DNA of 64,000 bases, from contig RPFO01000115.1 of assembly GCA_009746045.1 (NCBI GenBank), positions 802,474-866,473 of the forward strand, given 5' to 3'. Of this stretch, positions 52,501-58,500 are shown piece after piece. The notes beneath the pieces were generated by a model. It had not been told where the DNA came from. It made no database searches and worked only from the letters and a program-made list of their open reading frames with translations. Position 1 is the stretch's first letter. Each line of letters begins with the position of its first letter. The stretch comes from Mesostigma viride. Its lineage: Eukaryota; Streptophyta; Mesostigmatophyceae; Mesostigmatales; Mesostigmataceae. The translations under genes were made by a program, and so were the position numbers.

Positions 52501-55500
52501 CTCTCTCTCTCTCTCTCTCTCTCTCTCTCTCTCTCTCTCTCTCTCTCTCTCTCTCTCTCTCTCTCTCTCTCTCTCTCTCTCTCTCTCTGTCTCTCTCTCT
52601 CTCTCTCTCTCTCTCTCTCTCTCTGTGTGTGTGTGTGTGTGTCTGTCTGTCTTTGTGTGTGTGTGGCTAGCTCCCTCACCCCTCTCCCCCCGTCGGCTTT
52701 CCCCTCCCTGCTGTACCCCACCTCCTCCCCTGCCCTGCCCTCCTCCCCTCCCCCCACCCCCCCCTTGGGCCCACAGGCGCGTGCGGCAGCCGTACGAGGC
52801 AAGCAGGTCATCCCCGTCTTCTCCTTATACTCGCAGCACGGGCCCGTCTTCCGCGCGCTGCTGCGTGTGGAGAAGCAGCGCGACCCCGCTTGGCTCATGC
52901 AGTAAGCACCGCATTCATCGCTGTCAAACGTGGCCCATGCAGTAAGCACCGCATTCATCGCTGTCAATCGTGGCCCATGCAGTAAGCACCGCATTCATCA
53001 CTGTTAATCGTGGCCCATGCTGTAAGCACCGCATTCATCGTTATCAATCGTGGCCCATGCAGTAAGCACCGCATTCATCGCTGTCAATCGTGGCCCATGC
53101 AGTAAGCACCGCATTCATCGCTGTCAATCGTGGCCCATGCTGTAAGCACCGCATTCATCGTTATCAATCGTGGCCCATGCAGTAAGCACCGCATTCATCG
53201 CTGTCAATCGTGGCCCATGCAGTAAGCACCGCATTCATCGCTGTCAATCGTGGCCCATGCAGTAAGCACCGCATGCATCGCTGTCAAACGTGGCCCATGC
53301 AGTAGGCACCGCATTCATCGTTATCAATCGTGGCCCATGCAGTAAGCACCGCATTCATCGCTGTCAAACGTGGCCCATGCAGTAGGCACCGCATTCATCG
53401 TTATCAAACGTGGCCCATGCAGTAAGCACCGCATTCATCGCTGTCAATCGTGGCCCATGCAGTAAGCACCGCATTCATCGCTGTCAATCGTGGCCCATGC
53501 AGTAAGCACCGCATTCATCGCTGTCCATCGTGGCCCATGCAGTAAGCACCGCATTCATCGCTGTCAATCGTGGCCCATGCTGTAAGCACCGCATTCATCG
53601 TTATCAATCGTGGCCCATGCAGTAAGCACCGCATTCATCGCTGTCAATCGTGGCCCATGCAGTAAGCACCGCATTCATCGCTGTCAATCGTGGCCCATGC
53701 TGTAAGCACCGCATTCATCGTTATCAATCGTGGCCCATGCAGTAAGCACCGCATTCATCGCTGTCAATCGTGGCCCATGCAGTAAGCACCGCATTCATCG
53801 CTGTCAAACGTGGCCCATGCAGTAAGCACCGCATGCATCGCTGTCAAACGTGGCCCATGCAGTAGGCACCGCATTCATCATTATCAATCGTGGCCCATGC
53901 AGTAAGCACCGCATTCATCGCTGTCAAACGTGGCCCATGCAGTAGGCACCGCATTCATCGTTATCAAACGTGGCCCATGCAGTAAGCACCGCATTCATCG
54001 CTGTCAATCGTGGCCCATGCAGTAAGCACCGCATTCATCGCTGTCAAACGTGGCTCATGCAGTAAGCACCGCATTCATCGCTGTCAATCGTGGCCCATGC
54101 AGTAAGCACCGCATTCATCACTGTCAATCATGGCCCATGCAGTAAGCACCGCATTCATCGCTGTCCATCGTGGCCCATGCAGTAAGCACCGCATTCATCG
54201 CTGTCAATCGTGGCCCATGCAGTAGGCACCGCATTCATCGCTGTCAATCGTGGCCCATGCAGTAAGCACCGCATTCATCGCTGTCAATCGTGGCCCATGC
54301 AGTAAGCACAGCATTCATCGTTATCAATCGTGGCCCATGCAGTAAGCACCGCATTCATCGCTGTCAAACGTGGCCCATGCAGTAGGCACCGCATTCATCG
54401 TTATCAAACGTGGCCCATGCAGTAAGCACCGCATTCATCGCTGTCAATCGTGGCCCATGCAGTAAGCACCGCATTCATCGCTGTCAAACGTGGCTCATGC
54501 AGTAAGCACCGCATTCATCGCTGTCAATCGTGGCCCATGCAGTAAGCACCGCATTCATCACTGTCAATCATGGCCCATGCAGTAAGCACCGCATTCATCG
54601 CTGTCCATCGTGGCCCATGCAGTAAGCACCGCATTCATCGCTGTCAATCGTGGCCCATGCTGTAAGCACCGCATTCATCGCTGTCAATCGTGGCCCATGC
54701 TGTAAGCACCGCATTCATCGTTATCAATCGTGGCCCATGCAGTAAGCACCGCATTCATCGCTGTCAATCGTGGCCCATGCAGTAAGCACCGCATTCCTCG
54801 CTGTCAATCGTGGCCCATGCTGTAAGCACCGCATTCATCGTTATCAATCGTGGCCCATGCAGTAAGCACCGCATTCATCGCTGTCAAACGTGGCCCATGC
54901 AGTAAGCACCGCATTCATCGCTGTCAAACGTGGCCCATGCAGTAGGCACCGCATTCATCATTATCAATCGTGGCCCATGCAGTAAGCACCGCATTCATCG
55001 CTGTCAAACGTGGCCCATGCAGTAGGCACCGCATTCATCGTTATCAAACGTGGCCCATGCAGTAAGCACCGCATTCATCGCTGTCAATCGTGGCCCATGC
55101 AGTAAGCACCGCATTCATCGCTGTCAAACGTGGCTCATGCAGTAAGCACCGCATTCATCGCTGTCAATCGTGGCCCATGCAGTAAGCACCGCATTCATCA
55201 CTGTCAATCATGGCCCATGCAGTAAGCACCGCATTCATCGCTGTCCATCGTGGCCCATGCAGTAAGCACCGCATTCATCGCTGTCAATCGTGGCCCATGC
55301 AGTAGGCACCGCATTCATCGCTGTCAATCGTGGCCCATGCAGTAAGCACCGCATTCATCGCTGTCAATCGTGGCCCATGCAGTAAGCACAGCATTCATCG
55401 TTATCAATCGTGGCCCATGCAGTAAGCACCGCATTCATCGCTGTCAAACGTGGCCCATGCAGTAGGCACCGCATTCATCGTTATCAAACGTGGCCCATGC

Positions 55501-58500
55501 AGTAAGCACCGCATTCATCGCTGTCAATCGTGGCCCATGCAGTAAGCACCGCATTCATCGCTGTCAAACGTGGCTCATGCAGTAAGCACCGCATTCATCG
55601 CTGTCAATCGTGGCCCATGCAGTAAGCACCGCATTCATCACTGTCAATCATGGCCCATGCAGTAAGCACCGCATGCATCGCTGTCCATCGTGGCCCATGC
55701 AGTAAGCACCGCATTCATCGCTGTCAATCGTGGCCCATGCTGTAAGCACCGCATTCATCGTTATCAATCGTGGCCCATGCAGTAAGCACCGCATTCATCG
55801 CTGTCAATCGTGGCCCATGCAGTAAGCACCGCATTCATCACTGTTAATCGTGGCCCATGCTGTAAGCACCGCATTCATCATTATCAAACGTGGCCCATGC
55901 AGTAAGCACCGCATTCATCGCTGTCAAACGTGGCCCATGCAGTAGGCACCGCATTCATCGCTGTCAAACGTGGCCCATGCAGTAAGCACCGCATTCATCG
56001 CTGTCAAACGTGGCCCCTGCAGTAAGCACCGCATTCATCGCTGTCAAACGTGGCCCCTGCAGTAAGCACCGCATTCATCGCTGTCAAACGTGGCCCATGC
56101 AGTAAGCACCGCATTCATCGCTGTCAAACGTGGCCCCTGCAGTAAGCACCGCATTCATCGCTGTCAATCGTGGCCCATGCAGTAAGCACCGCATTCATCG
56201 CTGTCAAACGTGGCCCATGCAGTAAGCACCGCATTCATCGCTGTCAAACGTGGCCCCTGCAGTAAGCACCGCATGCATCGCTGTCAATCGTGGCCCATGC
56301 AGTAAGCACCGCATTCATCACTGTTAATCGTGGCCCATGCAGTAGGCACCGCATTCATCGCTGTCAAACGTGGCCCATGCAGTAAGCACCGCATGCATCG
56401 CTGTCAAACGTGGCCCATGCAGTAAGCACCGCATTCATCGCTGTCAAACGTGGCCCATGCAGTAAGCACCGCATGCATCGCTGTCGAACGTGGCCCCTGC
56501 AGTAAGCACCGCATTCATCGCTGTCAAACGTGGCCCATGCAGTAAGCACCGCATTCATCGCTGTCAAACGTGGCCCATGCAGTAAGCACCGCATTCATCA
56601 CTGTTAATCGTGGCCCCTGCAGTAAGCACCGCATTCATCGCTGTCCATCGTGGCCCATGCAGTAAGCACCGCATTCATCGCTGTCAATCGTGGCCCATGC
56701 AGTAAGCACCGCATTCATCGCTGTCAAACGTGGCCCATGCAGTAAGCACCGCATTCATCGCTGTCAATCGTGGCCCATGCAGTAAGCACCGCATTCATCA
56801 CTGTTAATCGTGGCCCATGCAGTAAGCACCGCATTCATCGCTGTCAATCGTGGCCCATGCAGTAAGCACCGCATTCATCGCTGTCAATCGTGGCCCCTGC
56901 AGTAAGCACCGCATTCATCGCTGTCAAACGTGGCCCATGCAGTAAGCACCGCATTCATCGTTATCAATCGTGGCCCATGCAGTAAGCACCGCATTCATCG
57001 CTGTCCATCGTGGCCCATGCAGTAAGCACCGCATTCATCGCTGTCAAACGTGGCCCCTGCAGTAAGCACCGCATTCATCGCTGTCAAACGTGGCCCATGC
57101 AGTAAGCACCGCATTCATCACTGTTAATCGTGGCCCATGCAGTAAGCACCGCATTCATCGCTGTCAAACGTGGCCCATGCAGTAAGCACCGCATTCATCG
57201 TTATCAATCGTGGCCCATGCAGTAAGCACCGCATTCATCGCTGTCAATCGTGGCCCATGCAGTAAGCACCGCATTCATCGCTGTCAATCGTGGCCCATGC
57301 AGTAAGCACCGCATTCATCGCTGTCAATCGTGGCCCATGCAGTAAGCACCGCATTCATCGCTGTCAATCGTGGCCCATGCAGTAAGCACCGCATTCATCG
57401 CTGTCAAACGTGGCCCCTGCAGTAAGCACCGCATTCATCGCTGTCAAACGTGGCCCATGCAGTAAGCACCGCATTCATCGCTGTCAATCGTGGCCCATGC
57501 AGTAAGCACCGCATTCATCGCTGTCAATCGTGGCCCATGCAGTAAGCACCGCATTCATCGCTGTCAATCGTGGCCCATGCAGTAAGCACCGCATTCATCG
57601 CTGTCAATCGTGGCCCATGCAGTAAGCACCGCATTCATCGCTGTCAAACGTGGCCCATGCAGTAAGCACCGCATTCATCGCTGTCAAACGTGGCCCCTGC
57701 AGTAAGCACCGCATTCATCGCTGTCAAACGTGGCCCCTGCAGTAAGCACCGCATTACGCATGATAAGTTACACACCGAGCAAGTACCACCGAATGGCGTG
57801 ATTGCAGGAGGGAGGAGAGGCAGGGGTGATGCTGGGTCTTCGGCATGGTATGCATCCACCTTGGTATATATCCTTAGTGCATTCTGAGCCATGGTGTGTG
57901 CGCGTTGCTTCATGGATATGATATATTTATCCCATGTATTATATGATATATTGATGGGAATTTGTGCTGGGACTGAACTCTGTTATTGCAGCCCAGCATC
58001 TGCAGATGTATGCCACGAGTAGCTCTGTAGTGTAGTAATACACAATGATGGTGTGATTCAGGCTGACTACCTGCCATCCTTGCCGCATACAATGCTGGCA
58101 ATCGACATAGCCCGCTTTATGGTCCGCTTCCACTGTACGTATGACAGCAAGGGCATGCATGATTTGGTTGGTGGTCGCATGCTGTGGGATGGTCGCTCGA
58201 GTGGCAGCTGCCAGCATTGGCAGTTGCCAGAGGGTGTGTGTTCCCACTACCACCTAAGCAGCGGTAATGCGCTCAAACATCTACACCCTAAAGCCTAACC
58301 AAGCCCTCAAATTTGAACCTAGAGCTTTGCGCGTTGGGCCCGGCTGCTCCGACGGTCCCCGCCGACGATCACACGCGACTTTTAAGGAACCAACGTACTG
58401 TGAAACCTAACTGTCATGATTGTGAATATTCCTTCCGAGCATGCACCGCTGTCATTAATGCGACATTTTTCTAGTCCGTAGAATCAGTAGCTATCAGAAT

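Follow-up and report, generated by a model that had tools for sequence, protein, structure and literature searches.

A 40-bp minisatellite repeats a splice donor at an exon-intron border of a TRM1-like gene in the streptophyte alga Mesostigma viride

Minisatellites that duplicate an exon-intron border have been described in lancelets, where the 'mirages' of the globin genes BflGb6 and BflGb9, Adh3, TnC and PGBD5 are reported to leave normal splicing undisturbed (PMC3087553, PMC3902484). In human ABCA7, a variable number tandem repeat (VNTR) in intron 18 has 25-bp units that include the exon 18 donor and ranges from ~12 to 427 copies; retention of one unit amounted to 2 +/- 1% in the measured tissues, VNTR length had no effect on this retention in cell lines, and cycloheximide raised the level of transcripts with premature stops (PMC5954066). 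Human segmental duplications also hold internal tandem repeats at exon-intron borders, and these alter splicing (PMC2812944). Here we analyse a window (the whole stretch of 64,000 nucleotides at positions 802474-866473 of contig C1913, RPFO01000115.1) from Mesostigma viride, probably strain NIES-296, a streptophyte alga, in which a 40-bp minisatellite spans an exon-intron border of a TRM1-like gene and repeats its splice donor. We consider it likely that the array is a splice-donor-anchored minisatellite, or mirage, which arose by duplication of the border and grew neutrally, and that the exon-proximal donor is used while leaky messages are destroyed.

The gene and the array are laid out as follows, in window coordinates.

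45545-61451, plus strand: TRM1-like gene (tRNA N2,N2-dimethylguanosine methyltransferase, PF02005), 11 coding exons
52777-52901, plus strand: exon 7 of the TRM1-like gene (exon 6 in an earlier reading), from the exact gene model
52891-52901, plus strand: exonic part of unit 1 of the array, the last 11 bases of exon 7
52891-57755, plus strand: 40-bp minisatellite of 121 complete units and one partial unit of 25 nt, each with GTAAGC or GTAGGC, as placed by Tandem Repeats Finder (TRF) and a strict-register reading
52902-58741, plus strand: intron 7, 5840 nt, which starts inside unit 1 with the donor GCA/GTAAGC (the slash marks the border), from the exact gene model
58742-58844, plus strand: exon 8, in which the split CAG codon is completed, from the exact gene model

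The position of the border was fixed with a predicted Mesostigma protein, P0001 (jgi/Mesvir1/2288 Mv19326-RA, 595 aa, EukProt), which 11 exons of the window, with GT-AG introns between them, reproduce without a single difference. Exon joining gave two solutions, differing solely in whether the stop codon is counted. The joined translation matched the Pfam family of N2,N2-dimethylguanosine tRNA methyltransferases (E 2.5e-44), exon 7 ended at 52901 in phase 2, and exon 8 began at 58742. A previous reading of the window, made from its letters and here called the sequence-only reading, had placed the array at the border of exon 6 and intron 6; the location holds, and the numbering becomes exon 7 and intron 7. 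Its split CAG codon, completed at the next exon, is borne out by the same model. The protein model agrees with regular splicing and contains no array-derived insert. Thus, as judged from gene model and protein homology, the donor of the first copy is probably the one in use.

TRF delimited the array at 52891-57755 with a period of 40, 121.6 copies, 94% matches and 0% indels. When it was read in strict 40-nt steps from 52891, we obtained 121 full units, each identical to the consensus at 34 or more of the 40 positions, followed by the 25-nt partial unit. The 121 copies and the end given before (52896-57755) therefore stand, and the start moves five bases upstream. The array spans the border, with 11 exonic bases inside unit 1: these bases, TGGCTCATGCA, agree with the unit consensus, TGGCCCATGCA, at 10 of 11 positions, and the differing T is also present in 4 other units. 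At donor positions -3 to +6, the full units read GCA/GTAAGC (100), GCA/GTAGGC (12) or GCT/GTAAGC (9), so that the nine bases of the first donor are common to 99 other full units and the partial one (101/122 identical). GTAAG or GTAGG was kept in 122 of 122 copies, as had been stated. A 20-nt core, searched with up to 3 mismatches, occurred 122 times in the window, always on the plus strand and inside the array, and 100 shuffles gave 0 occurrences. The observation of an array of repeated donors is thus confirmed, and the interpretation first attached to it is partly supported.

One assembly was searched (439.9 Mb, 2243 contigs). We looked there for a second allele or paralogue, and the 986-nt 3' flank of the array had a single match. 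The sequence CCCATGCAGTAAGC occurred 87 times, 85 of them in the array, with one copy on C387 and one on C2156; two copies outside the array are about the chance level (hand estimate 3), and the surroundings of the C387 copy, when read, contained no array of the TRM1 unit. A long CCCA simple-repeat stretch lies on C387 at ~1857-2060 (L001).

The exonic bases in unit 1 support the proposal, already made in the sequence-only reading, that the repeat was born by duplication across the junction. The array would have begun as a tandem duplication spanning the exon 7/intron 7 junction and then expanded to ~121 copies, partly by blocks of units. The 121 full units fall into 25 types with a mean pairwise difference of 5.5%, and the order of unit types shows excess recurrence at spacings of 11 and 27 units (z 5.6 for both lags, 500 permutations). 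Moreover, one block recurs exactly.

53851-54570, plus strand: 18-unit block, units 25-42, exactly repeated as units 52-69 (54931-55650); coordinates derived from unit numbers

Together, the excess at both lags and the exact 18-unit repeat point to growth partly via duplication of blocks of ~0.4 and ~1.1 kb, and block repeats within the array suggest past instability. Exact repeated blocks are also where assemblers err, and the copy number could in part be an artefact of assembly. We regard this as most improbable: the array measures 4.9 kb, whereas the read N50 given for the NIES-296 assembly is 11.2 kb (PMC6947507), and its 121 units are without indels.

An ordinary intronic minisatellite could instead have come to lie at the donor by chance. 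In the introns of two window genes six arrays were examined, and five of them include no border; only the TRM1 array does. The second gene, on the opposite strand, encodes a GT29 sialyltransferase-like protein, P0069 (Mesvir1/2287), whose 8 exons were reproduced exactly. Against an accidental position stand the eleven exonic bases in unit 1 and similar overlaps at other loci (see below), and we hold such an accident to be unlikely. The NIES-296 genome is given as 24,431 genes with 3.81 introns per gene (PMC6947507). By a hand calculation with ~93,000 introns and 440 Mb, a randomly placed array would start within 50 nt of a same-strand donor with a chance of ~0.5%.

Two of the arrays in the GT29 gene, which is read from the minus strand, may be recorded here. 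In intron 4, a 14-bp array of ~272 copies (39139-43006) starts 33 nt past the donor and is followed by 820 nt of single-copy intron. In intron 6, a 24-bp array of 78 copies (34732-36606) lies 220 nt downstream of the donor, and its sense strand contains 68 copies of GTGAGG, the hexamer of that intron's own donor (CTG/GTGAGG). The first coding exons of the two genes overlap in antisense (TRM1-like P0001, 45545-45734, plus strand; GT29 P0069, 45662-45725, minus strand); probably one of them is mispredicted, or else both genes genuinely overlap.

Whether the repeated donors are under selection was assessed by comparing columns of the unit, 14 of 40 of which are variable. Within GTAAG 1 of 5 columns varied, as against 13 of 35 elsewhere (hypergeometric P 0.42), and within GTAAGC 1 of 6, as against 13 of 34 outside (P 0.30); with 15 column-alleles the comparison has low power. 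Special conservation of the donor core, which the sequence-only reading had raised, was therefore dropped as a candidate; that reading had itself taken a core no more constant than the rest of the unit to mean descent, and this is where the comparison falls. We propose that the donor in every copy was retained through descent rather than selection, during neutral growth of the array. By the process called telescripting, U1 suppresses premature polyadenylation. Conceivably, then, the repeated donors are functional, as a U1 array that heads a long intron and prevents premature polyadenylation, or by leaking into nonsense-mediated decay and so setting the level of functional mRNA. The GTRRG core present in 122/122 copies fits such a role, as do the likely recurrence of donor-anchored arrays in the genome and the GTAGGC of 12 units, a hexamer with which introns 1 and 5 of the TRM1-like gene also begin. 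However, the core is no more conserved than the rest of the unit and its predicted pairing with U1 is weak (-4.2 to -4.5 kcal/mol), and a function of this sort seems to us improbable.

We then asked what the choice of donor would mean for the product. In simulated splicing, the donor of unit 1 gave the protein of 595 aa, and any of the 121 later copies gave 429 aa ending RDPAWLMQ; the truncation is uniform because TAA follows CAG at the first border. The earlier expectation that a later donor would truncate the protein thus proved correct for every copy. Messages with such premature stops are of the form removed by nonsense-mediated decay. All mRNAs from later copies would stop right after LMQ, and this decay is expected to remove them. 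It was also considered whether later donors are hidden by RNA structure. This idea was rejected, as the first copy ranked only 63 of 122 in predicted accessibility. Four units of the array were predicted to form less stable folds than shuffled sequences (z +2.41), 199 of 200 of which were as stable or more so. As most units share the donor core and the first copy has no privileged accessibility, U1 pairing and local structure cannot single out the first donor, and context must. The exon-proximal copy is likely to be used, most probably through exon definition, which pairs the 3' splice site of the exon with the nearest donor; being transcribed earliest would also favour the first donor. We infer, then, which copy is used in the RNA, why it is chosen, and that decay disposes of the rest. 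The puzzle of how U1 picks one site, posed by the sequence-only reading, is real, and the human ABCA7 VNTR already poses it (PMC5954066). The TRM1 array amounts to a natural competition of 122 donors, 101 of them identical at -3 to +6, in which U1 pairing alone cannot explain the choice of the first. Counts of unit usage would tell exon definition and order of synthesis apart from simple competition.

Alternatively, the units could serve as splice segments, with many donors in use or with 39-nt microexons, from TGCAG to the next GTAAG, each adding 13 in-frame residues. The frame from exon 7 is open between CAG and the following GTAAG in 114 of 120 units; by hand estimate, however, chance alone would leave some 50% of 39-nt stretches without a stop. 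The absence of any such insert from the protein model, the 41 nt that introns between adjacent units would measure, and the truncation caused by a later donor in 121 of 121 cases make this a very unlikely account of the array.

To see whether donor-anchored arrays recur, the assembly was scanned for three tandem CAGGTRAGT motifs with gaps of 10-40. There were 60 matches, as against 31 for the reversed motif; they represent 13 arrays, and every one of these was read. In 8 of the 13, a likely exon ends within the first unit or directly at its edge, a count that rests on our reading of exon ends and has protein family support in 4. A codon-usage score, trained on two genes, was expressed as the share of control GT sites, 838 in all, that reached the same score or a higher one. 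Among the loci with family support, L062 (17-bp units, 21.6 copies) adjoins an exon matching Glyco_transf_41 (E 3.5e-12, codon-usage share 0.011) and L070 one matching Ion_trans (E 2.5e-6, 0.005), both above the Pfam cut-off; the exons of L071 (LRR_8, E 2.5e-5, 0.067) and L075 (WW, E 7.5e-6, 0) fall slightly below it. Reading frames located the next exon past the array at L062 and L071. With this exon added, the L062 match became 1.6e-23, in one stretch across the join, and that of L071 5.4e-16, where the added repeats also lift the score. L061, L076 and L072 have no favouring Pfam family and rest on codon usage (0, 0.013 and 0.032, the last holding in a phase other than the one first translated). 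At L041/L085 (34-37 bp, ~3.4 kb or more), the sole support is a short open exon preceded by a pyrimidine tract and CAG.

The exonic overlap of unit 1 was ~4 nt at L062, 7 at L070 and L085, 13 at L071, 17 at L061 and L076, 25 at L072 and 43 at L075; these lengths are approximate, as they come from TRF starts and alignment with the next unit, and the TRF start of L070 lies just past the donor. Where the exon copy of L075 reads TAC, the second copy reads TAG. Likely exon ends lie ~70 nt before the array at L073 and ~490 nt before it at L074. At L042, L055 and L057 no exon was found. A pattern of three AGGTGAGT motifs yielded a further array, L079 (32-bp units, 3.8 copies, ~16 exonic nt), with an Ion_trans match below the cut-off (E 0.0017). 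The TRM1 array, with its non-consensus donor, escapes the CAGGTRAGT pattern, so the class is probably larger than the arrays found.

Two of these loci bear features of their own. At L061 (~1487-1592; 30-bp units, 3.5 copies, likely exon end), splicing from the second donor would lengthen an open frame by ten codons, in the manner of IFI6. At L057 (~1475-1775 on contig C1424; 37-bp units, 8.2 copies, no adjoining exon confirmed), the unit has a T-rich stretch before CAG/GTGAGT, and from its sequence each copy could act as both acceptor and donor. A broader proposal would be that minisatellites in Mesostigma are repeatedly seeded at donor borders, with some introns lengthening by amplification of their own 5' splice site, and that the U1 site arrays so formed are kept because they retain U1 on long introns during transcription and prevent premature termination. 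The 8 of 13 arrays support its first half, and the second half is conjecture; as a whole, we find the proposal improbable.

Several observations weigh against a neutral mirage spliced from its first copy. The last part of exon 7 encodes a variable segment of the protein: in an alignment of 11 of the 68 proteins found, the Mesostigma segment exceeds that of 8 of 10 homologues by 2 residues, equals one in length and is shorter than one. As the exonic bases of unit 1 code for this segment, copying from the exon into the array is likely but not proven. Position -1 of the array donor is A, whereas it is G in the other nine donors of the gene, and it pairs with U1 less stably than any of them (-4.5 kcal/mol, followed by -4.8; energies of pairing with the U1 5' end). 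Unless a further signal acts, leakage from so weak a donor, lacking G at -1, may be large. Skipping of exon 19 in ABCA7 grew with VNTR length (PMC5954066). Finally, motif counts alone show no consistent excess of donors over reversed motifs. The pattern of three AGGTGAGT motifs had 427 matches against 528 for its reverse, with ~100 listed, nearly all of them one 8-bp repeat on C1010; three GTGAGT motifs had 78,792 against 79,287, and among the matches listed most were GTGA simple repeats.

A neutral mirage nevertheless remains our preferred account, and it has counterparts in the systems already described. Like the TRM1 array, lancelet mirages are minisatellite-like tandem duplications of an exon-intron border with repeated splice signals, and their units evolve block-wise and in concert; they differ in having few and mostly longer units (150-160 bp in 3-6 copies in the globin genes, 10-72 bp in Adh3) and in occurring at both 5' and 3' borders in animals, whereas the TRM1 array has 121 copies of 40 bp in a green alga (PMC3087553, PMC3902484). 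In ABCA7, as in simulated splicing of TRM1, retention of one unit results in a frameshift and a premature stop. The ABCA7 VNTR is polymorphic, disease-linked and starts at GT, whereas the TRM1 array takes in 11 exonic bases; ABCA7 is the best measured parallel for donor choice among repeats (PMC5954066). The repeats of human segmental duplications are likewise minisatellite-like and located at exon-intron borders, but they vary between paralogues, average 30-bp units in 4 copies, and are tied to the formation of new introns (PMC2812944). The arrays of dual-specific splice sites in polyubiquitin UBC are tandem splice sites as well (PMC10809524). That type requires AGGT as donor and acceptor; AGGT is found at the shared site in 0 full units of the TRM1 array, each of which has CAGT or CTGT, and in CAGT one G is common to AG and GT. 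The human IFI6 (6-16) minisatellite reportedly holds several splice donor sites, with downstream repeat units serving as donors (Turri 1995). Its later donors are said to give protein isoforms, whereas those of TRM1 would truncate the protein, in 121 of 121 cases at 429 aa. Literature searches on minisatellites and splice sites, in a library that lacks most subscription journals, listed no example from a green alga or a plant, as judged by titles and abstracts. The TRM1 array appears to belong to the known mirage kind, with its recurrence in a streptophyte alga apparently unreported so far. The similar arrays elsewhere in the genome suggest that donor-anchored minisatellites are not a curiosity confined to lancelets and a handful of human genes, and they may be one route by which long introns grow in an early-branching relative of land plants.

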